Assembly (NCBI GenBank): GCA_019358975.1
Contig: JAHHIL010000042.1
Coordinates: 1 to 51,729 of the forward strand
DNA: 51,729 nucleotides
Source: Trichocoleus desertorum ATA4-8-CV12
GTDB taxonomy: Bacteria > Cyanobacteriota > Cyanobacteriia > FACHB-46
Direction: 5' to 3'
The position numbers and the translations under genes were made by a program. Of the stretch, positions 2,919 to 31,206 are shown one piece after another (within the stretch, counting starts at the first letter, position 1; each line of letters begins with the position of its first letter). The notes under the pieces were generated by a model. It was not told the DNA's origin and searched no databases. It saw only the letters and a list, made by a program, of their open reading frames with translations.

Positions 2919-2954
2919 ACTGGACGCTCTTTGTAGGTTGAGACGCGATCGCGC

Positions 2955-2976: not shown

Positions 2977-3170
2977 GCTCTTTGCCTCCCTTGGGCCACT
3001 TTGCCCAAAGTTTGAATGACGACTATGCTGCTGTGAAGGCAGGATTGACTCTAGACATCAGTAATGGTCCCACGGAAGGCCACATTAATCGTTTGAGCAT
3101 CTTCAAACGATTAATGTACGGTCGCACCGGATTGGAGTTACTGAGGCGGCGATTTCTCTTGCGCGCTTGA
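2977..3170 (+). pseudogene. ISL3-family transposase, C-terminal remnant
   Basis: About 64 codons reading into SNGPTEGHINRLSIFKRLMY and ending LRRRFLLRA. This is the highly conserved C-terminal block of ISL3 (IS204/IS1001/IS1096-like) transposases. The N-terminal ~350-400 residues, including the first catalytic Asp residues, are missing. The fragment abuts repeat copy 1, and the 22-bp repeat at 3422 could be the original right end of the element. It is not functional. Confidence 0.75.
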
Positions 3171-5273: not shown

Positions 5274-8200
5274 CTGATCCGGGCACTCCTTTAGAGATTA
5301 CGGTTGACAACCAGAATGCGTTGGAGGAGCTTGCTTGGGCGATCGACATGTCTCAAGGGCAGTTTGCCCTGTTGCTAGCGCAATGCAACTATGTTCGATT
5401 GCGGACGCAGATAGCGGAGCAGTTACAGAAAATTTCTGCTGTGCCCATTCGAGTGGTGACGTTGCCAAAGTTGGCTACAACGCTTTATACCTCGCTCAAG
5501 GCAGAGTTGGGCGACGAGAAACCTGAAGCCGTAATGGTGTTTGGGCTGGACGAGTCCGAAAATCTGGATCAGTTGCTTGCTTCGACAAATCAAGTACGAG
5601 AGGAGTTTCGCCAAACTTTTCCATTTCCGCTGATCCTCTGGATCAATGATGATGTTCTCAAGAAGCTACTGCGATTGGCTCCTGATTTTCACAGTTGGTC
5701 TACGACTACATCGTTTGAGGTTACCAGCTCTGATCTGCTGGAATCTTTGCGTCAGGGAGCCAATGAACTATTTGCTACGCTTTTGACTGCTGAGACAAAT
5801 GCTTCCTTTAACAGGCTGTTTGCTCAGATAGATCTAGCAATTTTGCGCCAGCAGGAATTAGCAGCCGCATTGAGTGAGCTGCAAAAGCGAGGTCAGGTTC
5901 TAGAGCCAGCGCTGCAAGCTAGTCTGGGCTTTTTCCAAGGGGTCAGTGCTGGAACTGATTCTGAAGCCTTGACATACTTGCAGCGAAGTCTGGATTTTTG
6001 GCAGCAGACTAGCGACGACCCTAAAGGGGGAACTGCTTCACATTCCCAAAGCAACGGCATTGTTCCAGCCTCAAACCAACTCCGTGTAGCGCTGCTGCTT
6101 TTCTTTATTGGGCAGTACCAATATTACGTGACAGAGCAAGATAGAGCGCGATCGCCCGATTGGAAAAAGACCCAAGTTCCTCTCCAGCAAGCCATTGAGA
6201 TCTTTGAGCAAGCTAATCGTCCAGATTTAGCCGCTAAATGTATTACTCGCCTAGAGCGAGTGTTAGAGCGCGTGCCAGATTGGGATGCACTGGAAGCAGT
6301 GGCGCAAAAATCCCTAAAATTACATCAGTCCTACTGTCATCTCAGCAGGTTGGCTCAAGATTACCGCTACCTAGCAGAGGTGGCGTTGCGGCGACAGCGA
6401 GCAGCAGAGGCAAAATCGCTAGCTCAACAAGCATTAGATACTATAGCAAAGATTCCAGAAGACCAGCGATGGCAAGGGTTACATCTGCTGACGCTGGCTA
6501 GGGTGGAACGGCAGCTGGGCAATCAAGAGGGGGCGATCGCCCACCTAAAAGCAGCCTATGATTTAGGCGATCAAGGGTTCCCTCGCCTCTTCAGTGAGAT
6601 TCTGGCGGAGTTGCGAGACATCTACTTAGAGCAGAAGCACTATCTAGAGGCATTCCTACTGAAACAAACACGGCTCTCGGTAGAGCAGCAGTATGGCATT
6701 CGAGCATTTGTTGGGGCAGGACGGCTGAAGCCTAAGCGGGAAGACGCAGAACAACACATCAATCAAGCAAATTTAGCAGAATCAACTGAAGAAATTGCCC
6801 CAGAGATTCGAGCATCAGGACGGCAAAAAGACCTGGATGAACTGCTCCAGCGAATTGGCGACACCGAACACAGATTGATTGTGGTACACGGCTACTCTGG
6901 CGTGGGTAAGAGTTCGCTGGTGGTGGCGGGGTTGGTTCCAGCACTGCGGCAGAGGGCGATCGGTTTTCGCAATAATCTGCCGGTGCTGATTCGGGAGTAT
7001 AGCCGTTGGATGGCCGTACTGGGGCAGCAGTTAGTAACAGCAACAGGAGAGAGCAGCAACGCAGCTTCTGAGAATTCGGAGGAAGAAGCAAGCTGGGATC
7101 AGGCAGCATTTCTAAAACAGTTGCGGCAAAACGAGCAGCGCAACCTCCGTACGGTCCTAATTTTTGACCAGTTTGAGGAATTCTTTTTTGTCTATCCTGA
7201 TCCGGTCCAGCGTAGGCAATTTTTTGAGTTTTTAGGACAGTGTTTAGGGGTGCTGTCGGTTAAGGTAATTCTCTCTTTGCGGGAGGACTATCTCCACTAT
7301 TTGCTGGAGTGCAGCCGTCTTTCTAGCATCAAAACCACAGGAATTGATATTCTCAGCAGCAATGTGCTGTATGGGTTGGGCAATTTTTCGGCTGAGGATG
7401 CGAAGGCGATTATTCAAGACCTGACTGACCGCGCCCAATTTTATCTGGAACCCGCTTTGGTCGATGCCCTGGTTAATGACTTAGCCGGAGAATTGGGAGA
7501 GGTCAGACCGATCGAGCTACAGGTGGTGGGGGCACAGCTACAAGATGAAAATATCACCACGCTAGCGAACTACCAAACCTGCGGTGAAACGCCAAAACAA
7601 GAGCTGGTCAAACGCTATCTGGCACAATCGGTGACAGACTGCGGCAGCGAAAACCAGCAGATTGCCGAACTGGTGCTGTATCTGCTCACCGACGAAAAAG
7701 GAACTCGCCCGCTAAAGACGCGTCCTGAGGTGGAGCGAGATTTGCAGGCGCTGACTGGCATCCTGATTCAAACTGGCTCTGCCTTGGACGATGCTCTGAC
7801 ACTAGTGCTGTGCGTGTTTGTAGACTCCGGCTTAGTTGTGCTGTTGCCAGAAATCCCACTGGATCGCTATCAATTAGTGCATGACTATCTCGCAGCCTTT
7901 ATCCGCCAACAAGCTCCCCAGATCGATCGCCTGATCGCTGAACTCGAAGCAGAACGAAAACAGCGACGGCTAAGTGAAGAAGAACTGGTCAAAGAAAAGC
8001 AGTCCAAGCAGATTTTAGAAGCCGCTCACCAGGAGGCGAAAAAAATTGCTCGTCTGGAGCGAGTGGGCATGCAGGCAATGCGGCAGTTTGAGTTTGCCCA
8101 ACTTGAGGCGCTCACTTCAGCCGTACAAACCGGAGAAGACTTACGAATGCTGATGCACGAGCGGGGTGAAGATGTTTATTCAGCGACTAGCCCCGTTCTG

Positions 8201-10252
8201 GCACTTCAAACGATCTTAGACGCCATTCAAGAGCAAACTCACTTTAGGGGGCATCAGGGCTACGTCAGAAGCGTCAGTTTCAGTCCCAATGGCACGCAGA
8301 TTGTCAGCGCTGGAGACGATAGCACCGTCCGACTGTGGAACCTCGATGGACAACAGGTGCAGCAGTTTAAGGGACATCAGACCCCTATTAGAAGCGTCAG
8401 TTTCAGTCCCAATGGCACGCAGATTGTCAGCGCTGGAGACGATAGCACCGTCCGACTGTGGAACCTCGATGGACAACAGGTGCAGCAGTTTAAGGGACAT
8501 CAGACCCCTATTAGAAGCGTCAGTTTCAGTCCCAATGGCACGCAGATTGTCAGTGCCGGAGCTGATGGCACCGTCCGACTGTGGAACCTCGATGGGGAGG
8601 AGGTGCAGCAGTTCAAGAAACATCAGGGCAGTGTCATTAGCGTCAGTTTCAGTCCCGATGGCACGCAGATTGTCAGTGCCGGAGCTGATGGCACCGTCCG
8701 ACTGTGGAACCTCGATGGGGAGGAGGTGCAGCAGTTCAAGAAACATCAGGGCAGTGTCATTAGCGTCAGTTTCAGTCCCGATGGCACGCAGATTGTCAGT
8801 GCCGGAGCTGATGGCACCGTCCGACTGTGGAACCTCGATGGGGAGGAAGTGCAGCAGTTTAAGGGGCATCAGACCCCTATTAGAAGCGTCAGTTTCAGTC
8901 CCAATGGTACGCAGATTGTCAGCGCTGGAGACGATGGCACCGTCCGACTGTGGAGCCTCGATGGACAACAGGTGCAGCAGTTCCGAGGACATCAGACCCC
9001 TGTCAGTAGCGTCAGTTTCAGTCCCGATGGCACGCAAATTGTCAGCGCTGGAGTCGATTTTACCGTCCGACTGTGGAGCCTCGATGGACAACAGGTGCAG
9101 CAGTTCCAAGGACATCAGGGCAGTGTCATTAGCGTCAGTTTCAGTCCCGATGGCACGCAAATTGTCAGTGCCGGAGCTGATGGCACCGCCCGCCTTTGGA
9201 ACCTCGATGGGGAAGAGATGCAGCAGTTCAAGGGACATCAGACCCCTGTCAGTAGCGTCAGTTTCAGTCCCGATGGCACGCAGATTGTCAGTGCCGGAGA
9301 CGATGGCACGGCACGACTGTGGAGCCTTGATGGACAACAGGTGCAGCAGTTCCAAGGACATCAGGGCTACGTCAGTAGCGTCAGTTTCAGTCCCGATGGC
9401 ACGCAGATTGTCAGTGCCGGAGCTGATGGCACCGCCCGCCTTTGGAACTTGGATGGGGAAGAGATGCAGCAGTTCAAGGGACATCAGGGCATTGTCAGTA
9501 GCGTCAGTTTCAGTCCCGATGGCACGCAGATTGCCAGTGCCGGAGCTGATGGCACCGTCCGACTGTGGAACCTGGATGGGGAGGAGGTACAGCAGTTCCG
9601 AGGACATCAGGACTATGTCAAAAGCGTCAGTTTCAGTCCCGATGGCACACAGATTATCAGTGCCGGAGACGATGGCACGGCACGGCTGTGGAACCTGGAT
9701 GGGGAGGAGGTGCAGCAGTTCCGAGGACATCAGAGTGATGTTAATAGCGTCAGTTTCAGTCCCAATGGCACGCAGATTGTTAGTGCCGGAGCTGATGGCA
9801 CCGCCCGCCTTTGGAACCTCGATGGGGAGGAGGTACAGCAGTTCCGAGGACATCAGGGCATTGTCTGGAGCGTCAGTTTCAGTCCCAATGGCACACAGAT
9901 TGTCAGTGCCGGATACGATGGCATGGCAAAATTACTTCCGGTTCTAGACCTGAATCAACTTTTAAGGAGAGGCTGCGCCTATCTCAACAACTTCTTGATT
10001 GCCTATCCCGATCGCCTCAAAACCCTAACAGCTTGCCATGATGACTCCGATCGCCTTGCTGCGGCTGCCCCTAATTTAGTAAAAGAGGCAGAAGCACAGG
10101 CAAGAGCAGGGAATGTGGATGCTGCGATTGATAACTTCCGTACTGCCCTGCAATGGAATCCCAGCCTTAACATTGATGATCCTGAAGCCAAAGCAAACCA
10201 GTTGGCATCCGAAGGAAAAGCTCAACGTCTAGTTAGCGAGAGTGAGGCTTAG
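5270..10252 (+). CDS. nSTAND1-type NTPase with 14 WD40 repeats
   Basis: A 1660-residue STAND protein. Order: an N-terminal ~170-residue domain of unknown function; a helical TPR-like region (~180-480); an NTPase with Walker A GYSGVGKSS (541-549) and Walker B LIFDQFEEFF (~630-639), typical of nSTAND1; a helical region; a charged coiled coil (~885-935); 14 WD40 repeats of 41 residues (~992-1560), enough for two seven-bladed propellers; and a short TPR-like tail. STAND proteins normally sit inactive until a ligand binds their repeats, then oligomerise on NTP and trigger an effector. Here the N-terminal domain or the upstream ATPase would be the output. The gene stops at 10250-10252, but homologous tail sequence continues out of frame (next entry), so the C-terminus was lost recently. 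No catalytic effector motif is obvious. Confidence 0.75.
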   Translation: MTDPGTPLEITVDNQNALEELAWAIDMSQGQFALLLAQCNYVRLRTQIAEQLQKISAVPIRVVTLPKLATTLYTSLKAELGDEKPEAVMVFGLDESENLDQLLASTNQVREEFRQTFPFPLILWINDDVLKKLLRLAPDFHSWSTTTSFEVTSSDLLESLRQGANELFATLLTAETNASFNRLFAQIDLAILRQQELAAALSELQKRGQVLEPALQASLGFFQGVSAGTDSEALTYLQRSLDFWQQTSDDPKGGTASHSQSNGIVPASNQLRVALLLFFIGQYQYYVTEQDRARSPDWKKTQVPLQQAIEIFEQANRPDLAAKCITRLERVLERVPDWDALEAVAQKSLKLHQSYCHLSRLAQDYRYLAEVALRRQRAAEAKSLAQQALDTIAKIPEDQRWQGLHLLTLARVERQLGNQEGAIAHLKAAYDLGDQGFPRLFSEILAELRDIYLEQKHYLEAFLLKQTRLSVEQQYGIRAFVGAGRLKPKREDAEQHINQANLAESTEEIAPEIRASGRQKDLDELLQRIGDTEHRLIVVHGYSGVGKSSLVVAGLVPALRQRAIGFRNNLPVLIREYSRWMAVLGQQLVTATGESSNAASENSEEEASWDQAAFLKQLRQNEQRNLRTVLIFDQFEEFFFVYPDPVQRRQFFEFLGQCLGVLSVKVILSLREDYLHYLLECSRLSSIKTTGIDILSSNVLYGLGNFSAEDAKAIIQDLTDRAQFYLEPALVDALVNDLAGELGEVRPIELQVVGAQLQDENITTLANYQTCGETPKQELVKRYLAQSVTDCGSENQQIAELVLYLLTDEKGTRPLKTRPEVERDLQALTGILIQTGSALDDALTLVLCVFVDSGLVVLLPEIPLDRYQLVHDYLAAFIRQQAPQIDRLIAELEAERKQRRLSEEELVKEKQSKQILEAAHQEAKKIARLERVGMQAMRQFEFAQLEALTSAVQTGEDLRMLMHERGEDVYSATSPVLALQTILDAIQEQTHFRGHQGYVRSVSFSPNGTQIVSAGDDSTVRLWNLDGQQVQQFKGHQTPIRSVSFSPNGTQIVSAGDDSTVRLWNLDGQQVQQFKGHQTPIRSVSFSPNGTQIVSAGADGTVRLWNLDGEEVQQFKKHQGSVISVSFSPDGTQIVSAGADGTVRLWNLDGEEVQQFKKHQGSVISVSFSPDGTQIVSAGADGTVRLWNLDGEEVQQFKGHQTPIRSVSFSPNGTQIVSAGDDGTVRLWSLDGQQVQQFRGHQTPVSSVSFSPDGTQIVSAGVDFTVRLWSLDGQQVQQFQGHQGSVISVSFSPDGTQIVSAGADGTARLWNLDGEEMQQFKGHQTPVSSVSFSPDGTQIVSAGDDGTARLWSLDGQQVQQFQGHQGYVSSVSFSPDGTQIVSAGADGTARLWNLDGEEMQQFKGHQGIVSSVSFSPDGTQIASAGADGTVRLWNLDGEEVQQFRGHQDYVKSVSFSPDGTQIISAGDDGTARLWNLDGEEVQQFRGHQSDVNSVSFSPNGTQIVSAGADGTARLWNLDGEEVQQFRGHQGIVWSVSFSPNGTQIVSAGYDGMAKLLPVLDLNQLLRRGCAYLNNFLIAYPDRLKTLTACHDDSDRLAAAAPNLVKEAEAQARAGNVDAAIDNFRTALQWNPSLNIDDPEAKANQLASEGKAQRLVSESEA
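8245..9966 (+). repeat. 14 tandem 123-bp WD40-coding repeats
   Basis: Each unit encodes GHQ-xxV/I-xSVSFSPxGTQI and then SAGxDGTxRLWxLDGxxxQQF. Units 4 and 5 (8617-8862) are identical at DNA level over nearly the whole unit, and units 1-3 nearly so. Variation concentrates at residues 4-7 of each unit (GYVR, TPIR, GSVI, TPVS, GIVS, DYVK, SDVN, GIVW) and at the SAGxD position. Such homogeneity shows recent duplication or gene conversion. Long open frames on both strands here are by-products of the stop-free repeat. Confidence 0.95.
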
Positions 10253-13544: not shown

Positions 13545-16500
13545 CTAAACCTCGAAGGGATCGAGTAGAGTTTCTGTAGAAACCTGCGTGCGTTGATGCT
13601 GGTAATAGGATTTGACAGCTTGCCTCAGCGCTTTCAACTTTTCGTGATCGTTGGAGAGGCAAATAAGCAGGTCTGAATCATCGCTAGATTCTATTGCCTC
13701 GATTCTGCAAAGATTAGCTCTAACAAGTTGAAGATAATCACCTCTTGTTAACTGATTGCCAATCTGTTTTGCTAAATCCACGCAAACTGGTGGCAAGCCA
13801 AGATTGAGTCTTATAAGTAATCGATTAACTCGTTCTTCTAAGTCAAGGATAGGATGAAGAATACTGGCAATTTGAGAAACTGTAGGTAACAAATCACTCG
13901 TTCGTGCTGCAATATCTCGGATTGCCCCTGCTGCACCTCCTGGTGAACCACCAAATTGAGTTAAAGCAGCTTCAATGTCACTTATGCTTCTCTGTGTAAC
14001 AAAAAAGAGGCAGGCAATTGCTTTTTTGGCTCTTAAGGTTGCTTGATGAGGCATCACTGTATTTTGAGCAAGTTTATTGAGCAGGCTTAAAGGTACGTTC
14101 TGTCTCTGTAGCTCCTGCCTCCAAAATAAAGGTTCTTTATTCGTACTGCGTCGGTTAATTGGAAAAAGCATTTGATCTAGCTCTACAGTTAACTGCACAG
14201 CAGTTAGCAAAGTTGGCTCATGAATTGAGTCTGGGTCCAAACCAGCTAGAGCATTAATAATCCGAATAATTGATTCAACCTCTACTCCAGCCTGCCCCGT
14301 TAACTGTCCAAGTGCAGTTAGACAATAGAATCCGTTCTCATTTTGCTCCACAAGGCCATGAGTCAGTAAGCTCTGAATTGCCTCTATGATTTGTGAGCGG
14401 CTCCATTGCCAATGTTGTGAAGCCTGAGTTTGCTGGAATGCTCCAAAACTAGCTTCTAAAAATTCAGTAATATCCTCAGCACTAATACCACGCTTCACAA
14501 TCTGCTGAACGGATGTGAGTACACGAATAATCAATGATCTTGGATCAGTTGTAGTACTGAGAAAACGAGATACAAGATCTTCTGGCTCACCTTCAACATA
14601 ACGTTGCCAGAGATAATGCTGATCATGAGGTGTCAATGCTAAAAGATAGGATGTACCCTTTTCTGCATATCCTAGACGTCCTGCTCGTCCTACTAAATTT
14701 TTATATTCTGCAATTGAGTAAGGTTTTTTGCTGTTGTTTGGAGCAGGATGATTCAGTCCCACAACGATAATGGATGAAGCAGGTGTATTAATACCCATTG
14801 CTAAAGTTGTAGTAGCAGCGATTACACGCAGAGTTGTATCTTCTGCGCGAAAGTGTTCTTCAACTACACGTCTTTCATCGGGTGCAAGCTCACTGGTATG
14901 AAAAGCAATTCCACTTTGGAGAACAGCGTGTAGATCCTCTGAAGCTTTAGAACGATCTCCACCTGGTAAAGCAGCCAGAGCTTCCTGTGCGGAGGGTAAG
15001 TTTAATGCTCTAGCCAAATACTGGGCGCATCCTCTAGCTTCTCCTTTCGTTTCCCGAAACACAATTACTTGCTGCCCTTCACTTACCAACTTTTGAACTA
15101 ATGGAATAACCCAGTCCTGGCTCGTTCCTTTGTGCTTTAAAGGGAGGATAAGAGGCTCTGTTATATGTTTTTTACCTAATATACCGTCAATAAAATGAAA
15201 GCTTCCATCTCTTAGCAGTAAACCCTCATCTAGTGGAATAGGGCGCTCATTACGTCTGAGTAAGCGTGCTCCAAGCCAACGCTCCAGTCCGCTGGTGTCA
15301 CCGATAACCGCAGAAAGAGCTATGATTTGAGGATTAATCCCATGTTGACGTTGTACTCGTAACAGCGTCAGTATAAATTCTAGATTAACTCCACGAGATT
15401 CATCTGCAATCATTTGCACTTCATCAACAACAATGGTTCCGACCTGATTCAGAATATGAGGATTGCTCAGAACAATTGCAGCAAACTTTTCATAAGTCAT
15501 CAGGCACAAATCATACTGACCACGCAGTAGCGGCGTAATGTCGTCTGTTTCCCCAGTAGCGGCGATCGTTAAAATACCAAACGCTCCATAAACCTTGATA
15601 AAGCTTCTCAACTTGTCGTTGACTAATGCCTTTAGAGGGAGTAGAAACAAACCTCGCCTACGCTCTAAAGCTCCCTTTAAAGCTGCAAGCTCACCAATCA
15701 TCGTCTTACCAGATGAAGTAGGCGCTGAGACGACCAAATTTTCACCTTCAAGGATTTTGTATTCGTTGATTGCATCAATTTGTAGCGAGTTTAGAGATGG
15801 AATATTACTTGCCCATAAGCGTAGTAACTCAGTTGGAAATCCATAGGTTTCGAGACTATAAATATCTGTAGTGACTTGAGTTTGTGCTCGTTCAGGAAAC
15901 GCAGCAAAATAACACTTTCCTGGTTTGAAGATAGGCCATAGTAGTTCTCCTTCAAATTGTCCACGAACAGTAGGATGCTGTGTTTGACCAAGCTGTGTAG
16001 AAGCATCAATCACTCGCTTGGTTACAAAATCCAACAATTGGTAGACAGGTAGTTTGCCAGCTTGCTGAACTTCTTCAGCACCCTGCAAAGCCTCCAACAG
16101 ATGATAGGTGAGCAGCCCGTGGCCATAACGAGTATTTTCATAGGCAGGTTCAGTCGCACTAGAAGCTGTTAAAATTAGCCGTCCTTCTCCAGATAGCTCC
16201 AAAAGAAGGTTTTCTGTGGACTTTAAACCTCGTGCTGTTGTCTCAACATGCAGGACTTTCGCTCCTATACCACCGGAGAAACAGCAATCTAAAACGCAAA
16301 TTAAATGACGTGTAGGAATGCTACAAACAAGCTCAGACAACCTTTCTAAGGCAATAGATGTATTCTCTACATCATAAATTTCAGTATCGTAGGTGACCAG
16401 TTGATGCGTTTCTGAACCATGTCCTGAGAAGGTTACCACCACTACGTCATCATAATCACACAGTGATAGCTTCGTAAGTTGCTCTTGAATAGCAGAACAT

Positions 16501-16655
16501 GTAGCATCTTGGTCTACTAGAAGAGTAGTTTCGCCACCAAATGCATCAGTAAACAAAGCATGTAGTGCTATTGCATCACGCTTTGCACAATTTAACCAAG
16601 AGATGCTAGGCGAAGCATAACGATCGATACCAACGAATAGTCCATAAAAAGCCAT
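13545..16655 (-). CDS. caspase domain fused to Ski2-like DExH helicase
   Basis: About 1036 residues. The N-terminal ~240 residues are a caspase-fold peptidase (C14) with His in VTFSGHGSE (~79) and Cys in VLDCCFSGG (~125). The rest is a superfamily 2 helicase: motif I APTSSGKT (~311-318), Ia LLPLKALVNDK, II VVDEVQMI (DEVQ ~411-414), III ALSAV, IV VIVFRETKGEA, V IAATTTLAMGINTPA and VI LVGRAGRLG. This set fits Ski2-like/HelZ enzymes that unwind nucleic acid. A helical C-terminal part follows. The start is chosen at ATG 16655, preceded by AGGAAA; a TTG 24 nt upstream is possible. It is 40 bp downstream of the Argonaute gene and last in the operon. The fusion suggests nucleic-acid sensing or processing coupled to proteolysis, possibly of the host's own proteins. 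That is inference. Confidence 0.85.
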   Translation of the reverse strand: MAFYGLFVGIDRYASPSISWLNCAKRDAIALHALFTDAFGGETTLLVDQDATCSAIQEQLTKLSLCDYDDVVVVTFSGHGSETHQLVTYDTEIYDVENTSIALERLSELVCSIPTRHLICVLDCCFSGGIGAKVLHVETTARGLKSTENLLLELSGEGRLILTASSATEPAYENTRYGHGLLTYHLLEALQGAEEVQQAGKLPVYQLLDFVTKRVIDASTQLGQTQHPTVRGQFEGELLWPIFKPGKCYFAAFPERAQTQVTTDIYSLETYGFPTELLRLWASNIPSLNSLQIDAINEYKILEGENLVVSAPTSSGKTMIGELAALKGALERRRGLFLLPLKALVNDKLRSFIKVYGAFGILTIAATGETDDITPLLRGQYDLCLMTYEKFAAIVLSNPHILNQVGTIVVDEVQMIADESRGVNLEFILTLLRVQRQHGINPQIIALSAVIGDTSGLERWLGARLLRRNERPIPLDEGLLLRDGSFHFIDGILGKKHITEPLILPLKHKGTSQDWVIPLVQKLVSEGQQVIVFRETKGEARGCAQYLARALNLPSAQEALAALPGGDRSKASEDLHAVLQSGIAFHTSELAPDERRVVEEHFRAEDTTLRVIAATTTLAMGINTPASSIIVVGLNHPAPNNSKKPYSIAEYKNLVGRAGRLGYAEKGTSYLLALTPHDQHYLWQRYVEGEPEDLVSRFLSTTTDPRSLIIRVLTSVQQIVKRGISAEDITEFLEASFGAFQQTQASQHWQWSRSQIIEAIQSLLTHGLVEQNENGFYCLTALGQLTGQAGVEVESIIRIINALAGLDPDSIHEPTLLTAVQLTVELDQMLFPINRRSTNKEPLFWRQELQRQNVPLSLLNKLAQNTVMPHQATLRAKKAIACLFFVTQRSISDIEAALTQFGGSPGGAAGAIRDIAARTSDLLPTVSQIASILHPILDLEERVNRLLIRLNLGLPPVCVDLAKQIGNQLTRGDYLQLVRANLCRIEAIESSDDSDLLICLSNDHEKLKALRQAVKSYYQHQRTQVSTETLLDPFEV

Positions 16656-16695
16656 AACTAATTTCCTAGCTTGAGTCAAAGGTTAGTGTTGCGGA

Positions 16696-18939
16696 CTAGA
16701 GCCAAAATTGGCGATCGCACTCAGGCACATAGACACCATTCAGGCGCAAATCCGCCAACCGATCAGCGCCATGCAATAACATCGGCAAGCGGGGCGGCTT
16801 CAGAGCACCATGATGGAGTAGGGTCAGCTTCAAAGTGGCATCCATGATCTGCTCGATCGATGCTGGATGCCCTTCAGAGCGAACTGTTAGGCGAATGGGA
16901 CGAGGAACCCCAATTCTGCCACTGACCTGGGTCGTGACCAGAATGGCTTCATGACTAGAGAGTTTCAACCCAAGTCCGCGAGTCGGAGCCGCAATGCTAC
17001 GTCCCCGGTCAGAGTTTGATCGCGGAAGGTTATAAAGCCTTGACGTACCTGACTTACGACACTCAACCAGGATGAACTGCGATTGGATTGCCGCTGCCCA
17101 GTTCAATAGGTGAGTAACCTCATCGCCGCAAAAACGTCCATCTCGGTAAATTAGAACTGTTTTCCCTCTCAATGCACCGGCTGGTAGCAGTGCCTCCAGA
17201 AACCGTTGCGGAATTTCTTCTCCCTCGATCGCAGCATCTTCCGACTTTGCCCGAATAAATTCTCCTCGATTACCGTACAAGCAGACTCCGGCACAGGCAT
17301 TCATGCTGCCCGACAACCGCCGCTTCTTGGAGCGCGCCACGTCTAGCCCAATAAACACATCGGCAACCTGCAAGGGTTCTGCCAGAACGAAAGGAACGTT
17401 TCCTAATTTCGCTAGCACTCCCAGCATCACCTGATTCAAAACGTATCGAGTTTCTTTCCGAAGCGTCTCCTCATAGATGAACTGACTAGCGATCTGGCGG
17501 CGCAGCAGCTTTGAGTAAATGCGATGGTAGAGGCTACCGCTCTCGTCATCATCAGAACCGCGATCGCTCTGAGGTAGAAATACAAACATGATGTCCGGCT
17601 TGATCGTCATCAACTCATCCAGTTTGTCCTCTAGAGTCGCTCGACCCTCTGGACTGTTCCAGTTGTCCACCAAAATGGCTTCGGTGCTGGGGTTGAGTTC
17701 TAAGCTGGGAAACTTGTAGCGCTCGAGTTGCTGCCGCACCTGCTGCATAAACCCATTAACCTGTGCTTCAGGCTTGAGCAGATTGAGTACCACGAGCCGA
17801 ATGGGTCTTTCTGAAACGTTTTGATAGTCCCGGTGCCGCTGATAAACTCCCCCATTTTCCAATCCACGCAGGATGCCGTTGTAGAGTCCTGTCACACCCT
17901 GTCCAAATTGAATCGGTGTTTGCTCAATCGGGTGCTCTGGTACCCAGAACAAGTCCCCGTTGTCTCTCCCGTTAATCGCTTTGAGGAATTGAATGTTGTA
18001 GGGTCGCAGTGCTTCCTTTGCAGCTGCACTGTATTCCTTCAGAAGTTGCTGACGATCTGCATACGGTATTTTGGTTTGCTCCAGCAGAGTGCCAAAATCA
18101 ATGTCTAACTGATTTGCGGTTTCGGCAGTGACGCAGGGTCGCAATGCCGCCATTGCATAGGGGTAGAGGCGTTTGCTGTTTTGCCCAAAGCGTACAGCCA
18201 CCACCGGTTGCTCTGCCGGAGCTTCCTCCAACGCTTTACGGCTAATAGCGCCACTAGCTTTTGTGAGTAGATATGTACGATGCTCCGCGATCGTTCCAAC
18301 AATCTCTTCGATCGTCGCAGTGCTATCGGTATCTAGGGTTTCAACCTTCAAACTGACCAGTAACCTCTCAGGGTTCTGGCGGTAGGGGTGATTCGCCAAA
18401 AAACCATCCAATGTCCCTTGAAACGTAATGCGGCTGTGGGGAGATAGCGCGATCGCAGGATGAGGCATTTGATTGATTTCGACCGTCTCTGCCCCAAAGT
18501 CTGCTCTTCGCTTGACCTCAATGTTCTGCTCCGAATATACAGTCTTGGGTCGAAATGGTTGGCTAACATCCAAAATCTGTTCTGCAAAGGCGGCAATGAT
18601 GTCTGGAGTCATCTGCGGATTTCGCGATCGCTGAAATCGCCACTCTGGATCGGATGGTTCATAAATCTCACGGTGGATGTACTCCAGTGCCCCCGCCCAT
18701 TCTGCATCCGTTGGTAGGGTTTGCTCCTGGTTCGCTAGGGCATAAAAAAGACCGTTCTTCCAAACGACAATGACGTTTGGGAAGTAACGTGAAAAACGGT
18801 AACTCAGCCGCAACCCATCCTCACGGTCTGTAAGCGGAGACAGGCGAAAGCTAACCAGATTTAGGTCGGTGTGACCCAGGGCAAAAATCTCGCTCAGGCA
18901 ATTTTTATCCTGAAGAGATTGAGTGGCTAATGCAATCAT
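16696..18939 (-). CDS. long prokaryotic Argonaute, probably catalytically active
   Basis: About 747 residues with full pAgo layout: N and PAZ-like region (to ~330), MID (~450-520) and PIWI. MID shows a Y-K...Q...K type 5'-phosphate pocket (IYSKLLRRQIASQF, then VLAKLGNVPF). PIWI shows the DEDX tetrad: Asp in FIGLDVAR, Glu in AIEGEEI, Asp in LIYRDGRF and Asp in LLHGADRLADL near the C-terminus. It resembles the long-A cyanobacterial group (Synechococcus/Limnothrix type) that uses DNA guides to cut DNA. The start at 18939 has GGAG nine nt upstream and leaves 14 bp after the Cas4-like stop; ATG 18999 would overlap that gene. It lies between the Cas4-like nuclease and the caspase-helicase in one operon. 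Confidence 0.9.
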   Translation of the reverse strand: MIALATQSLQDKNCLSEIFALGHTDLNLVSFRLSPLTDREDGLRLSYRFSRYFPNVIVVWKNGLFYALANQEQTLPTDAEWAGALEYIHREIYEPSDPEWRFQRSRNPQMTPDIIAAFAEQILDVSQPFRPKTVYSEQNIEVKRRADFGAETVEINQMPHPAIALSPHSRITFQGTLDGFLANHPYRQNPERLLVSLKVETLDTDSTATIEEIVGTIAEHRTYLLTKASGAISRKALEEAPAEQPVVAVRFGQNSKRLYPYAMAALRPCVTAETANQLDIDFGTLLEQTKIPYADRQQLLKEYSAAAKEALRPYNIQFLKAINGRDNGDLFWVPEHPIEQTPIQFGQGVTGLYNGILRGLENGGVYQRHRDYQNVSERPIRLVVLNLLKPEAQVNGFMQQVRQQLERYKFPSLELNPSTEAILVDNWNSPEGRATLEDKLDELMTIKPDIMFVFLPQSDRGSDDDESGSLYHRIYSKLLRRQIASQFIYEETLRKETRYVLNQVMLGVLAKLGNVPFVLAEPLQVADVFIGLDVARSKKRRLSGSMNACAGVCLYGNRGEFIRAKSEDAAIEGEEIPQRFLEALLPAGALRGKTVLIYRDGRFCGDEVTHLLNWAAAIQSQFILVECRKSGTSRLYNLPRSNSDRGRSIAAPTRGLGLKLSSHEAILVTTQVSGRIGVPRPIRLTVRSEGHPASIEQIMDATLKLTLLHHGALKPPRLPMLLHGADRLADLRLNGVYVPECDRQFWL

Positions 18940-18953
18940 GGGTAGATGCTCCA

Positions 18954-19760
18954 CTAAATGGTAAATTGACAAACGGATTGGAACTGGCAGGTCTGGCATT
19001 GGTAGCCGGAATGGGGCGGAAAGATTTCCTCAAACGATGCTAATTTACGCCTGTAGCGCTGCAAGTCGTTCTGATGTTGCTGGGCGAACCGGAATAAATC
19101 CATTTCCAACACTTGCAATTGCACTGACAATGCACGAATTGGATCTGACCAGGTTTGGGATTCAAGGTTATAGAAAGAGGCGATCGCCTCGTAGTTGGGG
19201 TAGAGATACTTAGCGGCCAGTAGGTAGACATAGGCTTGGCGGCGATCGAAGTCTGATTTGCCAGTTTTGAAGTCTAGAATGTGGAGCGTACCGTCCGGTT
19301 CAACAAAAATACAGTCGATTGCAGCAAAGAGATTACACTCTTGATTGCCCGAACGTAGCAAGATTGGCTCAGGAAATCCTTCATCTCCTCGGCTCAGTTT
19401 CAGAATGTTTTTGCCCAGCAGAATTGGAGTCACCTGATAGTTAGCCAGGACTTGGGTGACACGATTGCGAACCTCCTGACTTCTGTTTTCTAAACCCAAG
19501 ATTGCTGACACTCGGTTCACACCATCGTCACCAATTAGGCAATGTACGTCCTGATGAAATTCGTAAATTCCCTGTTGCGCCAGCAACCCGATCTCCTGAT
19601 AGACCGTTTCCTGCTGAATCAGCGGGGCAACCTCTGGTTCTTTAGCACGAGCTTTCAGAAAACCCCGCTTCATCGGGCAGTGCCGCTGTTCCTGACCGAT
19701 TGCTGGCTCAAACAGGGCCCAGAGGTTGTAACTGAAAAATGGTTTCCAAACAGTCTGCAT
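18954..19760 (-). CDS. Cas4-like PD-(D/E)XK nuclease with C-terminal cysteines
   Basis: 268 residues. The nuclease core is AAIDCIFVEPDG followed by LHILDFKTGK, with Asp and DxK as catalytic residues and a preceding His/Glu region. The C-terminus has the CQTCQFQSVC motif that, with an upstream Cys, usually binds a 4Fe-4S cluster in Cas4/AddB-type exonucleases. Cas4-like nucleases next to long Argonautes have been noted in cyanobacteria, and a role in processing DNA ends into guides or targets is plausible. First gene of the operon: GAGGAG lies ~9 nt before ATG 19760. The 223 bp upstream is the divergent control region shared with the XRE gene. Confidence 0.8.
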   Translation of the reverse strand: MQTVWKPFFSYNLWALFEPAIGQEQRHCPMKRGFLKARAKEPEVAPLIQQETVYQEIGLLAQQGIYEFHQDVHCLIGDDGVNRVSAILGLENRSQEVRNRVTQVLANYQVTPILLGKNILKLSRGDEGFPEPILLRSGNQECNLFAAIDCIFVEPDGTLHILDFKTGKSDFDRRQAYVYLLAAKYLYPNYEAIASFYNLESQTWSDPIRALSVQLQVLEMDLFRFAQQHQNDLQRYRRKLASFEEIFPPHSGYQCQTCQFQSVCQFTI

Positions 19761-23952: not shown

Positions 23953-24453
23953 TTAGAGGTCATCATCAGAACGCATTTCTTGAAAACCGTACTCATTGGT
24001 ATTGGTCAATAAGGGTTGAATTCCAGGCTCAACGAGAGGCTGCACTTTATCTTTGGGCAGTTGCGTAAGCTTGGGCGATCGCTGCGATGAGGGAACGGGA
24101 AGCGAATTCGCCTTTTTGACCTTGCTAGACTTGGAATCTAAAGCGGGTATGGTTGGCAGGTCAGCTTGGGGATTGAGGGCTCGGCTCTCTTGTAAATACC
24201 GCTTGAGAGTATTTAAGGTTAGGTCAACGCCTTCCGCCTTAAACACGTTGGCAATATCCTCTAAGGTGTAGCCTGATTCCTGAGCCGCTTCGATTTTAGG
24301 TCTGAGCCGAAACACCAGCTCTTTCACCTGCAAGCCCTTCGGGTTTTGCGCCAGGTGCTCCAGTTTTGAACTCAACTGGTTCGCGGTGCTCTCGGGATAA
24401 ATCTTCGGCGGCTTGCCCATCATGACCTCGCTGAGTCTTGTCCAAATCGCCAT
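23953..24453 (-). CDS. TraK-like mobilisation accessory protein
   Basis: 166 residues. The N-terminal ~95 residues contain VFRLRPKIEAAQESGYTLED followed by IANVFKAEGVDLTLNTLKRY, a small helix-turn-helix-like domain seen in TraK/MobC-type accessory proteins of plasmid transfer regions. The C-terminal half is Pro/Ser/Lys-rich and probably disordered. The start is uncertain: ATG 24453 has GGAG very close, while ATG 24423 or 24420 has GAGG at better spacing. Its 5' end overlaps that of the divergent MobC-like gene, as expected around an oriT. Confidence 0.6.
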   Translation of the reverse strand: MAIWTRLSEVMMGKPPKIYPESTANQLSSKLEHLAQNPKGLQVKELVFRLRPKIEAAQESGYTLEDIANVFKAEGVDLTLNTLKRYLQESRALNPQADLPTIPALDSKSSKVKKANSLPVPSSQRSPKLTQLPKDKVQPLVEPGIQPLLTNTNEYGFQEMRSDDDL

Positions 24454-25063
24454 GACTCCGATGGAATGCTCCTACTACTCTTCTAACGAAATCACGCTAG
24501 AGCTGGCGGCTTCAGAAGGCGGTCTTAGCAAAACTTTGAATTTGAGCGAGCTGGTTTCTGCTCCAGCGCCTGCCGAAATCACCCTGGACGTGCTAGGACA
24601 GAATTCTGATAGCTCGGTGGCGAGTTGGAGTGTTATGCCTAACTTTGAATCGATGGATCAGGCGATCGCGGAACTTAGAGGTGAGATTCGAGAGACTTTA
24701 GGAGATTCTGAGCTGCATCAACGCAGAACGATCCCGAAGCGTTTTTACATCACTGAAGCAGAAGAACAGCAGCTTGAGGAACTACGACAGGGGGTCAACC
24801 TCTCAGCCTTTGTGCGAGCCAAAGTGTTCGGTTCTGGCATTCCTCGACCTCGGGCGATCGCCCCTCAGATTAACCGAGAAGCTTACGTACAACTCGCTCA
24901 GCTTAGAGCCCTTTGCAACCAAATGGCGAAGGCCATGAATATAGCGGTCCAGCAAAACAGAGATTTACCGCTCACTTCTGCTTACCTAGATCAACTGGAA
25001 CGACTAGAGACATTGCTGGTAGAAATCGGGCTGCAATTGAGCCAACGCCAGGATACTCATTGA
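24452..25063 (+). CDS. MobC-like relaxosome protein
   Basis: About 203 residues. The C-terminal ~110 residues (RTIPKRFYITEAEEQQLEEL, then GVNLSAFVRAKVFG, then LAQLRALCNQMAKAMNIAVQ) match bacterial MobC mobilisation proteins, which bend oriT DNA and help the relaxase nick. The N-terminal ~90 residues are unassigned and acidic. Starts at ATG 24452 or 24461. The relaxase gene follows 14 bp after the stop, so they form an operon. oriT probably lies near the divergent start overlap at ~24400-24470, but no defined nic motif was identified. Confidence 0.7.
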   Translation: MTPMECSYYSSNEITLELAASEGGLSKTLNLSELVSAPAPAEITLDVLGQNSDSSVASWSVMPNFESMDQAIAELRGEIRETLGDSELHQRRTIPKRFYITEAEEQQLEELRQGVNLSAFVRAKVFGSGIPRPRAIAPQINREAYVQLAQLRALCNQMAKAMNIAVQQNRDLPLTSAYLDQLERLETLLVEIGLQLSQRQDTH

Positions 25064-25077
25064 GAGGAAACGAAGGC

Positions 25078-25623
25078 ATGATTGGGAAGACGTTGCAGAA
25101 TCACAACTTTAGAGAAACCACTCAATACGTGCTCGATAAGGAAGCGGCACGGTTACTCGGAGGCAGTGTAATGGGGTCTGATGCGGATACCATCTCACGA
25201 GAATTCCTCTTATCACAGGACTTAAACCTCACCATTGAGCGGCCCGTTTATCACCTGATTGATGCCTATAGCTATGAAGATGCCGCAACTCAGGATTTGA
25301 ATGACGAGTTTTTAAGAGACAGAGCGATCGCTCGGTTTGCTGGATTAGTCGTATCAGCGAGGGAGCCAAACTTGCTGCGAAGCGACGACAAAACTGCATA
25401 TAAACAGCAGATCAGTGAGTTTATTGAGTCGGAACTATACGAGTATCAATGGTTCTGTGCCGTCCACGAAGACACGAAGCATCGGCATACGCATTTCGTT
25501 GCCAGTCGCATCAATCTGCTAGACGGTCGTGCGATTCCCACTTGGCAGGACCACGAGCGCAGCCAGCGCATTTGTCGCGAGACCGAAAAAGAGTATGGAC
25601 TCCAACCTCCGAAACCCGTGTAG
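25078..25623 (+). pseudogene. MOB relaxase, N-terminal half (cut by inversion)
   Basis: About 181 residues with the relaxase catalytic region: RPVYHLIDAYSYED and the metal-binding histidine motif CAVHEDTKHRHTHFVASRIN (HxDxxHxHxH), continuing to LDGRAIPTWQDHERSQRICR. Relaxases nick oriT and pilot the strand. A full protein would be about three times longer. The reading frame ends at TAG 25621 a few codons past the 10-bp sequence CCGAAACCCG (25609-25618), which is also the end point of the 1.4-kb inversion. The missing C-terminal part lies on the opposite strand at 26188-27024. The initiating ATG follows GAGGAAACGAAGG. Confidence 0.8.
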
Positions 25624-25904
25624 ATAATCAGGCAAAAGCTGATCGCGGCAAGAATGCCCACGAAGAGATCTCGGTAGACCCCATCAAACGCTGTGCACGT
25701 AGACCCAGCGTGATAATAAGCGCTAAGAGAATTCTGTATTTCCAGCGGAGCCGAAATCCACCACAAGCTATTAATTCCCCCCACCACGAGCAGCAAGGGC
25801 AGCATAAAGCCAAAAACACCCATGCACCAGCGCAGAACGGAATAAGAGCGCAGGATATGCGTGTCCAGCCGCTCGGGGGGATCAGTGATTCGCATAGTTG
25901 CCAT
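25610..25904 (-). pseudogene. multi-pass membrane protein, N-terminal half (cut by inversion)
   Basis: About 98 residues: a short soluble lead, then transmembrane segments around GVFGFMLPLLLVVGGINSLW and DLFVGILAAISFCLIIYTGF, with the intervening SLSAYYHAGS motif. The family has a YYH motif and a conserved NWLLNIAG segment, but the NWLLNIAG half is found separately at 27028-27617 on the opposite strand. Past residue 98 the frame runs into antisense relaxase sequence. The start ATG 25904 is weakly supported. The function is unknown; it may be related to DUF998-like membrane proteins. Confidence 0.65.
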
Positions 25905-26187
25905 AAATTCTTAGAAGGTCTCGTGATTCTAGATACGTACCAGGAAATTACTTTATGCTCGTCATTTAAGGAGGATCTTGATAATTTTTAGTGCATTGCG
26001 GCTTGATTGAATTATCTACGGCATTTTGTCTGCCTCACTATGATTGGATTGAAACTTTCCATATAAAACGCCTATTGGGGTGATTAGGCGGATGATTTTC
26101 GTATAACATCTCAAATCAAGTAGATAGACGGATACTCTCAATCTTTCTAGATTAGCCCCAGTCCCTGATTCGGCAGGAGTGCTGCCA
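25905..26187. other. gap inside the inverted segment
   Basis: Presumed promoter region of the membrane protein and 3' flank of the relaxase before inversion. No gene or strong repeat is seen; the sequence is AT-rich. Confidence 0.3.
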
Positions 26188-27024
26188 TCAGAGATCAAGA
26201 TGTTGGGATCGCGAGCGAGATCGCCTCGGGAAATTGGTTGCATGCTGCTTCTGCTTTTCCGGGTCTAATGGCTGTGGCAGAGCTTGTTGGTGCAATCGTT
26301 CGTTGAGTTGCTCGATCGCTGTGCAGTCCTGCTCCGTCAAGCCATAGCTCTGATAGTCGCCCTCTGAATACCCCATTAGTAGGCGATCGCGGTGATAGAG
26401 TTCCGGTTGACCTGCCTCACCCAAGCGAATCTGGTAACCCTCAAAGGTTAGCGCTCTGAGCTTAGGCGTACCCGTTTTCTCCCGACTCCATATTTGTTGG
26501 ATCTGGGGTGCAAGGCGATGAACATCTTCATTTTGTACCCTCAAAATATCCTCAAGTGGATCAGGTTCAAGCATCTGCCCAGTTATCGATTCAACCCCAA
26601 GACGCTCGATTTCAATCTCTCTTGCTAGCCGTTGCTGGAGGGCTGGGAGTGTGTAGCCTCGGCCTAGTTGGGACCCTGACATCCTTACCACTTCGCTTTG
26701 AGTATCCGCTTGCTCGAAAATGATGCCTGGTTTGTTGAGGCGATCGCCCCACCTGACTGAAATACCGTGGTTTTGCAGCAAGGCTGCTTGCAGTTGCTCG
26801 AGCCCTCGTCCTGGAATTGCCTCTTGGTCAATGGCGTCTTGCATCAGCACCATTACCGGGGGAACCCCAGTTTTCTGCCACGTCTCCATTTGTCTTCTAG
26901 TGGGCGATCGTCGTTCGATTTCGTAGGAGCTTTTTAGGGGAGTGTAAATCTCCTTGTGTCTAACCAGACAAATTTGACGGGAAATCAAAGATTCCAGCTT
27001 TGGTTTACACAAAAATCCGGACAC
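26188..27024 (-). pseudogene. MOB relaxase, C-terminal half (inverted)
   Basis: About 270 residues on the minus strand matching the accessory C-terminal part of cyanobacterial plasmid relaxases: WQKTGVPPVMVLMQDAID, then LQAALLQNHGISVRWGDR, then MSGSQLGRGYTLPALQQRLA. The C-terminus is charged and ends at 26188. Its 5' end runs into the inversion end point; a GTG start is available but has no biological support. Rejoined with 25078-25618 after reversing the inversion, the frame is off by one base, so the relaxase may have carried an earlier frameshift or the joint lost a base. Confidence 0.7.
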
Positions 27025-27027
27025 TCT

Positions 27028-27617
27028 CGGGTTTCGGCAAGTTAGAAAACTGGCTGCTCAACATTGCTGGTTTATGTCTTGCCGGTGTTGCCTTCTTTCC
27101 GATGGAATGGCCCGAACCACAGGTGCTGTCGGTGTGTCAGGTAGCACCAGGCTTCGAGTCTTTCACTTCCAGTAAGTTGCTAGGACTGCCAATCTCAATC
27201 CATTTCGCGTCCGCTTCCGTTTTCTTCCTAACAATCACATTAGTCAACGTATTCACAGCAATGAATACTGTCGATATCATCAAAAATGAAAGGAAAAAGA
27301 ACTTTTGGCGAAAAATCTTCAGAGTTGCCAGGTTCTTGATGCCGCTCTCACTAGCGCTTGTGCTGCTGCTAAGGATCGTGACGGGCACGAGCATCATTGG
27401 CGATCGCCTAGTCTTGTGGCTGGAGTGGGCAGGCATATGGGCATTCTCCCTGTACTGGCTGCTCAAGAGCATCGAGATCCTCAGTACGAAAGTTGACGTA
27501 GATGTGATCAACGGCAATGTGCAATGGGTATCCCCTTCATCTGCCGACGAGAAAGGACTGCCGCACCACAGACGTCATTTAGCTAAGAGAAGTAAACTAC
27601 CAGGACAAAGAGCATAA
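27028..27617 (+). pseudogene. multi-pass membrane protein, C-terminal half
   Basis: About 195 residues continuing the protein begun at 25904: GFGKLENWLLNIAG, a run of hydrophobic helices (CLAGVAFFPM, HFASASVFFLTITLVNV, FLMPLSLALVLLLRIV, LEWAGIWAFSLYWLL) and a charged tail. An artificial start exists at 27000, but the sequence upstream of 27028 is inverted relaxase DNA. Joined across CGGGTTTCGG with the N-terminal half, the reading frame is continuous, giving a protein of roughly 295 residues with about six transmembrane segments. Confidence 0.7.
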
Positions 27618-28504: not shown

Positions 28505-29456
28505 TTATGAATCAAGAGGGCTTTTCACGCCTCGTCCGCCTCGATTGAAGACGTGAGTGTAAATCATCATTGTCTTCACATCCTTGTGCCCCAAAAGCTC
28601 CTGAACGGTTCGAATATCACACCCATCCTGCAACAAATGGGTCGCAAAACTGTGGCGAAGCGTGTGATACCCCACTCGCTTTTGGATTCCTACCGCTCGT
28701 GGGGCCTGCTTCACCGCCTTCTGAACACTGTGATGGCGGCAGCGCAGCCCGCTACACGGGTCGAACAGGATGCCGATAGAGGGAAAGACGTACTGCCAGA
28801 CCCCCTCTAGCCCAGCATTAGGATATTTTCGTTCCAAGGCGTAAGACAGATACACCATGCCATATTCCCGCTCTAAGTCTTGCTGATGGGATCGTTTGGT
28901 TCGTCGCATCTGCATTTGTAGTGGCTCAATGGTGCGACTCAGCAGCATTGTCACTCGGCTCTCATTGCCCTTGGCGTTCCTTACCACTTGAGACTGAGCA
29001 AAATCTAAGTCCTTGACCCGCAACTGCAAACTCTCACTGAGCCGTAGACTGCTGCCATAAAGCAATGGCACGACCCATTGCGGCACACCGCTCATGCGAT
29101 TGAAGATGGCATGCGTCTCCGCTTTGCTCAGCACGGTGGGCAGATAGCGAGAAAGTTTCGCTCGAATTGAGTTGATGGACTCATCCAGCTCCTGTCGCAG
29201 CACTGCACGGTAAAGAAATAGCAAAGCACTGAGTGCCTGATTCTGAGTTGAAGCAGCCACGTGTTCCTGGACTGCTAGATAGCTAAGAAACTGCTCGATT
29301 TCCGGTGCTCCCATTTCACTGGGATGGCGTTTGTTGTGGAAGAGGATGAAGCGGCGAATCCTCTTCCACCTAGCTCTCCTCAGTGGGGTAGGGGTAGTGC
29401 TTCATGTGAATGACATCGCGGACTTGCTCCAACAATTTTCGAGGTCGTGATTTCAT
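28505..29456 (-). pseudogene. intI: integron integrase (IntI-type), frameshifted near the N-terminus
   Basis: A tyrosine recombinase with integron-specific signatures: the extra motif LERKYPNAG after MVYLSYA, then [54 protein letters not shown] and the C-terminal GRGVKSPLD. Catalytic residues include Arg in [23 protein letters not shown] and the nucleophile Tyr in IYTHV. The natural start is ATG 29456 ([20 protein letters not shown]). After TEES the frame stops at ~29370, while the continuation [20 protein letters not shown] lies in another frame, consistent with a 2-nt deletion. Only an N-truncated product from 29314 could be made, lacking most of the SAM-like DNA-binding domain. So the integrase is probably inactive, yet its attC sites and cassettes lie next to it. 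Confidence 0.85.
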
Positions 29457-29540
29457 AGGAGTACCCTAAATTCTGTCTAATCCCGTTTCTGGAGTTTAGG
29501 CAGAATCAAAGGTGAAAACGGAGCGAAGAAACGCTGAAGA

Positions 29541-29690
29541 ATTCGGGCTAATTGCCGGAACCAGGGGTATTATACGGAAAATTCGTCGGGCTAATGTCCG
29601 AATTGGAGGATTAGACGGAACTGATTCGGGCTAATCACCTCTATAGGGTAGTTAGCCCGAATCAGTTCCGTCTAAACAATAGTTAGCCAG
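29541..29690. other. putative attI region with direct and inverted repeats
   Basis: Three loosely tandem units begin ATTCG..GGGCTAAT at 29541, 29581 and 29624, each followed by CCG or GACGG sequences. A 24-bp perfect inverted repeat follows: arms at 29611-29634 and 29652-29675 (TTAGACGGAACTG... and complement), 17-nt loop. GTTAGCC occurs at 29651 and 29682 and resembles the GTTRRRY core. The position between the integrase start and the first cassette gene is where attI and the integrase/cassette promoters belong. Assignment as attI is inference. Confidence 0.45.
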
Positions 29691-29775
29691 ATCTGCGTTA
29701 TCTGTGGGGACAATAGTTTAAACGATTTCTGTGAAAATATTTTCATAGTTGATTTAGGATTAAGGGTTTAGAGCC

Positions 29776-30435
29776 ATGACTGCTGAATGGGACGGTATCA
29801 CTAAATCAGAAGTGCTTCGGGACGATGAGGTTGTGATTCGCCATGCACTTGCAGATGCCGCAAAGCAATATAACTGGAAGAAAACCCTTAAAATTCTTGA
29901 TGAGCGTCCAGATTTGATCAATTTGACTCGTCCTGATGGGCGAGCGTTATACACCCCTCTTCATCAGGCTGCACATGGGAATGCACCAGTAGAAGTAGTA
30001 CAACAAATGATAAAAATGGGGGCATGGCGAACGTTACGGACTGCAGATGATGAAAGAGCAGTAGATATTGCAAAAAGAAAGAGTCATCAGCACTTGGTTC
30101 AGTTACTAGAGCCGGTTTACAAAACCCATATTTCTCATGCAAAACTTCAAAAGATTCAGAATCATTTCCATCAAATCATTCTTGCTTGAACAGGTGATTT
30201 GGTTCAAAAATCTGGGCTAAGGCTTCCAGAGCTAGAACCGATGCTAGAAATAGAGGAGCCTAAAATGTGGTTTCTAGTTCCTGGAATGTACGGTGGCTTC
30301 AGTTATTGGTTTGATGGTGAAGGGAAAAATGCAAAGTTGATCTCTGAGAGTTGGTGCCGTGTTGTGGGTGGCTCAGACCAACGTCATGAGATTACTAGCG
30401 AGGAGGGTAAGTTAGTTGACGAGGGCTTCGTTTAA
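29776..30435 (+). pseudogene. ankyrin-repeat cassette protein with an internal stop
   Basis: First part, 137 residues, with ankyrin-like helices (ALYTPLHQAAHGNAPVEVVQ, then AVDIAKRKSHQHLVQLLEPV). An in-frame TGA at 30187-30189 ends it, but the same frame continues as LRLPELEPMLEIEEPKMWF, FLVPGMYGGFSYWFDGEG and ESWCRVVGGSDQRHEI to a stop at 30435. The second part is the conserved C-terminal domain of this cassette-type protein family as I remember it. So the original protein was ~219 residues and has been cut by one nonsense change. An attC follows 20 bp after the full-length stop. The product may still work as a truncated ankyrin protein. Confidence 0.7.
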
Positions 30436-30447
30436 GTTTACAAGTAT

Positions 30448-30554
30448 AACCTTGCGGTCTAACAATCCCGTTGCATACCGCCCGTACAGAGTCTTTTCGT
30501 TGAGTTCGAGAGATTATTCGCGGCGGGTGAACGGGGTCGTTAGACCGCAAGGTT
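30448..30554 (+). other. attC site of cassette 1
   Basis: R'' box GTCTAAC (30457-30463) and R' box GTTAGAC (30539-30545), both fitting consensus. The inner arms CCCGTTGCATACCGCCC and GGCGGGTGAACGGGG are complementary with extra-helical bases. The stem is extended outward by nine perfect base pairs (AACCTTGCG and CGCAAGGTT). The variable terminal structure lies between. This is the best attC in the window. Confidence 0.9.
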
Positions 30555-30625
30555 ATGGGTGAGGGTGATACTTAAAACATCTCTGTTTGATAGGTAGCTT
30601 GTATGTAGCTTGCCTAAAAGAGAAA

Positions 30626-31042
30626 ATGTCAAATATGTTTGAATTTCACGGATGGGCAACACTGCGCGTTGATTCTGTTGATGAATATGGAGATGAGGAT
30701 GAAAAGGCATTACAAGCTTTTTTAAGCGAACTGCACCAACGTATTGAAACAATGCTGATTGATGGTGCAATTCATGTTGAGATTCGTAATGGTCTTCATA
30801 CGTTGACCATTTTTGGGCACAACAATCATCGGCAAGAATCCGTTATTGACTTGTTCAGGTGGGTAGCTATGAATTCACGTGGTTCTTACGGCTTACTTTT
30901 CATACATGATGACGAGGATTACAAAAGGGGCGGTGATTACACCAACCAGTTTCGAGTATGGAAACTGGCATTGGGAGAGTTGGAAGAACTTGATGACCCT
31001 TTTCTCTCGCCTTATATTCCCACTGTGGAACTACCTTCTTGA
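30626..31042 (+). CDS. Imm7-like immunity protein (integron cassette)
   Basis: 138 residues matching the Imm7 family: MFEFHGWATLRV at the start, FGHNNHRQESVIDLF, RGSYGLLFIHDDEDY, and a C-terminal DPFLSPYIPTVE. Imm7 proteins are immunity proteins of polymorphic toxin systems. No cognate toxin is seen in the window, so it may act as an orphan protective cassette against toxins from neighbours. The start is set at ATG 30626 after AAGAGAAA; ATG 30635 is equally possible. An attC follows 77 bp after the stop. Confidence 0.8.
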   Translation: MSNMFEFHGWATLRVDSVDEYGDEDEKALQAFLSELHQRIETMLIDGAIHVEIRNGLHTLTIFGHNNHRQESVIDLFRWVAMNSRGSYGLLFIHDDEDYKRGGDYTNQFRVWKLALGELEELDDPFLSPYIPTVELPS

Positions 31043-31119
31043 AGGCAAAGGTTACAGCGATCTAGTAAATAAGAGTTATGCTTAACTACCTAAAGTTCTC
31101 CACTAGCAACAGATAAGCG

Positions 31120-31206
31120 GTCTAACGATCGCGTTGCACACCGACCGAATCAGGGCGATTGGAAGACCTCAAAAGTCTTGGCGGCGGGTGAACGCGATCG
31201 TTAACG
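31120..31206 (+). other. attC site of cassette 2
   Basis: R'' box GTCTAAC (31120-31126), arm GATCGCGTTGCACACCGACC, then GGCGGCGGGTGAACGCGATC and GTTAACG (31200-31206). GATCGCGTT and AACGCGATC pair exactly. The R' box departs from GTTRRRY after GTTAA, as expected when the bases past the crossover G come from the next inserted DNA. Confidence 0.85.

Follow-up and report, generated by a model that had tools for sequence, protein, structure and literature searches.

A probable one-off inversion beside a 91-bp MITE breaks a relaxase gene and a membrane protein gene in Trichocoleus desertorum

Is the inverted segment that splits a relaxase gene and a membrane protein gene in Trichocoleus desertorum ATA4-8-CV12 a switch or an accident? 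The window analysed here (51,729 nucleotides) is the whole of contig C42 from a 6.06 Mb genome assembled in 90 contigs. In this window, a preliminary description had noted the 10-mer CCGAAACCCG at 25609-25618 (+ strand) and its complement at 27028-27037 (- strand), and had proposed that an inversion between these repeats broke both genes. The two copies are indeed present at these positions, and they are the sole ones in the window even when one mismatch is allowed (two matches, the pair itself). Since chance would give 1.79 matches when one mismatch is allowed, the repeat has no significance by itself; exact inverted 10-mer pairs less than 2 kb apart number 312 in the window. We judge the inversion to be real because of the gene evidence, namely the membrane protein ORF that is rejoined by a flip, the relatives that run across the join and two intact paralogues of the relaxase.

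The 5′ part of the membrane protein gene lies at 25610-25904 (- strand) and the 3′ part at 27029-27617 (+ strand), as delimited from the ORFs, the flip and the relatives. When 25609-27037 was flipped by script, a single ORF of 291 amino acids was obtained, and the claim that this protein is restored in perfect frame was confirmed. Four of the 386 genomes in the phylum set, the own genome included, contain a match to the protein. In the phylum relatives, the residues covered are 11-252 (G025), 12-254 (G375) and 8-124 plus 151-261 (G200); two of 72,556 plasmid records also matched, over residues 5-245 and 11-246. Two of the three relatives used for alignment run straight across the join, which reads TGFGKLENWLLNIAG in the window and KGFTDLENYVLNFAG and RGYGRRENTALNIAG in these relatives; the third (L040) was left out of the alignment with its frame wrongly picked. 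In the own genome, the two pieces in the window are the only matches and no intact copy was found. A scan of genome contigs with the membrane protein pattern gave 11 matches, with no relative among them.

The relaxase gene was examined against its paralogues. Its 5′ part (25078-25609, + strand) comprises 177 codons and one base, and the ORF now continues to a stop at 25623. Its 3′ part (26188-26937, - strand) comprises 249 codons and a stop. The sum of the codons, 426, equals the length of the intact paralogue on contig C68; a second intact paralogue, of 425 amino acids, is encoded on contig C33. A gene for a NikA/MobC-like mobilisation protein (24413-25063, + strand; Pfam PF21983 NikA-like, 29.7 bits, cut-off 27) lies just upstream of the relaxase gene. 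Up to 25609, the 5′ part shares 86-88% DNA identity with the two paralogues. Both paralogues then join 25609 directly to 26937: the join reads CAACCTCTAAAAAGC in each, the 10-mer is absent there, and a single C is shared by the window positions 25609 and 26937. Because both paralogues pass directly from 25609 to 26937, the 10-mer and the stretch 26938-27037 are both foreign to the relaxase gene. On the evidence of this reversed join and of the rejoined membrane ORF, the inverted segment is 25610-26937 (1328 bp). The claim that the inversion ends exactly at the repeats therefore holds at 25609 but not at the right end, where the relaxase resumes at 26937 according to the intact paralogues; 26938-27037 is a 91-bp mobile element with its flank. 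The further claim that one flip also mends the relaxase failed. The flipped gene would hold a 100-bp insertion, the frame of the first half stops soon past the join, after PKPESVRIFV, and the second half is in another frame.

The 5′ part encodes a complete MOB relaxase (MobA/VirD2-like) nuclease domain (PF03432, residues 17-175, profile positions 1-132 of 132, 80.1 bits, cut-off 24.6). Since the entire Pfam nuclease domain is retained, the product, which is predicted to be truncated just past this domain, may still nick DNA. Moreover, mobilisation is not necessarily lost because the genome has the two intact paralogues. For the first part of the relaxase, the dN/dS value of the window copy was 0.07 against the C68 paralogue and 0.05 against the C33 paralogue, as compared to 0.07 between these paralogues. 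For the second part, the corresponding values were 0.24, 0.22 and 0.21. Thus, comparison with the intact copies gave no sign of relaxed selection on the split relaxase. Because both halves are open reading frames and their dN/dS values match those of the intact pair, the break looks recent on the dN/dS scale.

The element at 26938-27028 (+ strand), which the preliminary description had missed, is a MITE. It is non-coding, 91 bp long, and has terminal inverted repeats of putative IS256 type (GGGAGTGT..TTGTGTCTAACC / GAGAGTGT..TTTGTGTAAACC). The alignment score of its ends is 5, as compared to a mean of -6.0 for shuffled sequences, and only one of 1000 shuffles reached 5. Two further copies, 98 and 97% identical to window positions 26938-27026, are present in a congener (G001). 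All three copies are exactly 91 bp, and their flanks differ, as expected for a mobile element found in full in two genomes. The ends are GGGAGTGT and ACACTCTC in the window and GGGAGTGT and ACACTCCC in the congener. One congener copy (L025) has CTTAAATT on each side, a target-site duplication (TSD) with 8/8 agreement. Two observations count against the history that we favour below: the other congener copy (L027) is flanked by CTAACAAC and CTACAAGC, which agree at 5/8 positions, and the rightmost bases of the element are CTC in the window and CCC in the congener. Within the own genome the MITE is single-copy, and among the 386 phylum genomes it was found only in this one. A search of viral contigs and genome contigs with the MITE pattern gave no match. 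In the sets searched, including the order-level and genus-level sets of three genomes each, the element occurs in two genomes of one genus only.

In the IS256 family (Mutator superfamily), ends of this kind and duplications of 8-9 bp are usual. The MITE resembles this family in the 8-bp duplication and possibly in its GAGTGT...TTGTGTAA-type ends, a pattern similar to which occurs in the congener at the start of the IS256-type element, next to its transposase gene. In contrast to the family, the MITE contains no transposase. On contig C37 of the congener (L036, 1370-1420), a partial MITE copy ends about 6 bp away from where an IS256-type element begins, perhaps a hint at the parent element. In the own genome, one IS256/Mutator-type transposase gene was found (49807-51018, - strand; NF033543, 422.9 bits; one PF00872 match). 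The ends of this element are clearly different from those of the MITE. The gene is a possible source of transposase for the MITE.

Next to the MITE, an 8-bp sequence, GGGTTTCG, occupies 27029-27036 (+ strand). Its reverse complement occupies 25610-25617 (- strand), with 8/8 agreement, and GGGTTTCG occurs only once per strand in the whole window. The direct flanks of the window MITE agree at 4/8 positions. When the right flank is compared with the far end of the inversion in inverted orientation, the agreement is 8/8. This perfect match in inverse orientation fits a TSD of which one copy was carried off by the inversion. The displaced copy starts at the first base past the relaxase break. The two outer matches of the repeat are the C at 25609, which is a relaxase base, and the C at 27028, which is the final base of the MITE; the right 10-mer thus consists of the TSD, the last MITE base and one gene base. 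Therefore, the 10-bp repeat is better read as an 8-bp TSD that is extended by a chance match at either end.

These features are consistent with the following history, which we consider probable: a one-off, MITE-associated inversion in which the MITE entered the membrane protein gene before the inversion took place. In the ancestor, an intact 426-aa relaxase gene would have been followed by the membrane protein gene, both on the + strand. The MITE would have inserted into the membrane protein gene and duplicated the 8 bp GGGTTTCG. Cuts would then have been made exactly between one TSD copy and the MITE end and within the relaxase gene downstream of the nuclease domain, and the 1328 bp between the cuts would have been rejoined in reverse. 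One TSD copy would have stayed at the MITE, and the other would have moved, inverted, to the far end. The outcome would be a broken membrane protein gene and a relaxase truncated directly after its nuclease domain. This history would require two events, an ordinary insertion and a reciprocal inversion. The anatomy of the locus shows the MITE with its 8-bp duplication, one copy of which is displaced and inverted; we infer the order of events and the cutting agent. Because the relaxase junction has a one-base overlap and no 8-bp duplication, the inversion probably arose when an end of the MITE that had been cut by transposase was joined aberrantly, rather than by another normal transposition; for the same reason, we only infer a role of transposase in the inversion itself. 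More tentatively, we suggest a one-ended, non-replicative route in which a single transposase cut at a MITE end is joined to an unrelated break without duplication and inverts nearby genes. It counts against this history that, among the genomes searched, no relative had a membrane protein gene interrupted by nothing but the MITE, and none had the uninverted gene order.

The same events might be ordered in reverse. If the MITE had first been inserted in the relaxase gene, it could have attacked GGGTTTCG in the membrane protein gene by intramolecular replicative transposition and inverted the DNA between; the MITE copy at the relaxase end and its flank would later have been deleted. The 8-bp flank on the relaxase side, CTAAAAAG, is somewhat like the MITE targets in the congener and would suit this order. 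Furthermore, inverted target duplications around an inverted segment are a described outcome of such a reaction in the available text of PMC7986276. The inverse target copies are present here (25610-25617 and 27029-27036), but two bracketing copies of the element are required and the locus has a single one, with none at the far end. The extra deletion would also need two precise ends, one at the border of MITE and TSD and the other at the initial base of what would have been the old TSD. For these reasons, we regard replicative transposition as unlikely, while giving it some weight. Much less probable is the mechanism of the preliminary description, a single recombination event between pre-existing 10-bp inverted repeats. 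An exact 10-mer at each end and the in-frame membrane protein after a flip agree with it. However, the 10-mer is absent at the relaxase join in 2/2 intact paralogues, the relaxase gene of the ancestor would have to have been interrupted beforehand by a MITE without any TSD, and the repeat length is accounted for by the 8-bp TSD and two chance bases. We rejected this mechanism because the paralogues do not have CCGAAACCCG at the site. An assembly or amplification artefact is improbable to a similar degree. The assembly is a draft of 90 contigs, but the single-copy state of the MITE in the genome argues against a misjoin driven by repeats, and an inverted 8-bp duplication at the edge of a MITE is not what an assembler would be likely to produce.

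The least credible explanation is a phase-variable invertible switch, in which a recombinase, for instance the integron-type integrase encoded at 28505-29314, would turn the segment. A tyrosine recombinase gene does lie 1.5 kb away. However, its product passes the cut-off of the integron integrase model TIGR02249 (336.7 bits, cut-off 265) and not that of an invertase model; no invertase adjoining the segment was identified. The segment ends are the TSD and the MITE edge, a flip restores only the membrane ORF and leaves the relaxase frameshifted, and the assembly contains one orientation only. A switch driven by the integron integrase was rejected on account of these ends and the unmended relaxase. 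A switch controlling mobilisation, as had been suggested, is unlikely because the truncated relaxase keeps its whole nuclease domain and the genome has two intact paralogues. Of the two possibilities originally offered, the one-off rearrangement fits and the phase-variable switch found no support. The inversion looks like an ordinary accident.

Several other features of the contig should be mentioned. A second palindromic repeat, unrelated to the MITE, lies at 26023-26153, between the membrane protein gene and the relaxase 3′ end; in the original order it stood between the two genes. It matches seven places in one distant genome (G022) with 76-82% identity; no other match in the own genome was listed. 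This repeat is probably another MITE. The integron integrase lacks about the first 40 positions of the TIGR02249 model. The members of a pair of 31-bp repeats, located at 30454 and 31117, are 87% alike and attC-like by eye, and 28505-31147 is possibly a small integron on a plasmid-like contig. An ORF at 918-2918 (+ strand) encodes the catalytic domain of a telomere resolvase (ResT/TelK; 103.7 bits). This domain is also found on contigs C33 and C79 of the own genome and in Synechococcus elongatus, which served as a control; no clear hairpin-type palindrome was found within positions 1-3000 of the window. A P-loop NTPase-like ORF (3927-5273) precedes a gene for a 1660-aa protein with 14 WD40 stretches (5270-10252, + strand). 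A caspase-domain and DEAD helicase protein is encoded at 13545-16679 (- strand) and a PD-(D/E)XK nuclease at 18954-19760 (- strand); from this arrangement, 13545-19760 (- strand) is a possible defence cluster. The contig end (51115-51729) resembles, by eye, the beginning of a group II intron, and the Rfam search, which included this end, gave no match at the gathering score.

It is already known that mobile elements cause adjacent inversions and that MITEs inactivate genes (available text of PMC7986276 and PMC10969869). In IS6-family adjacent (intramolecular) inversion, as described in the available part of PMC7986276, inverted target copies bracket the segment. The present locus likewise has a segment flipped beside a mobile element and, at either end of it, target copies of 8 bp that are inverted relative to each other. 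In contrast, there is a single 91-bp element without a transposase here, and the relaxase side has no duplication. Gene inactivation by prokaryotic MITEs in cyanobacteria is on record in the accessible text of PMC10969869, and our element resembles the MITEs treated there in being short and non-coding, in its terminal inverted repeats and in its TSD. In contrast, a MITE that borders a gene-splitting inversion is not described in that text; the inversion which it mentions is that of the Correia element itself. No matching case emerged from our literature search for inversions with a MITE or an IS256 element at their border.

The inversion has a modest biological effect: of the three relaxase genes one is truncated, and a membrane protein gene is broken. 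The locus has also yielded a small MITE, whose 8-bp duplication is clear, from an order represented by only three genomes in our search. It shows how a TSD split by an inversion can mimic a recombinase switch, and comparison with intact paralogues and with copies of the element elsewhere offers a simple check. If the tentative one-ended route is correct, miniature elements would rearrange plasmids and leave behind a false signature of an inverted-repeat switch.
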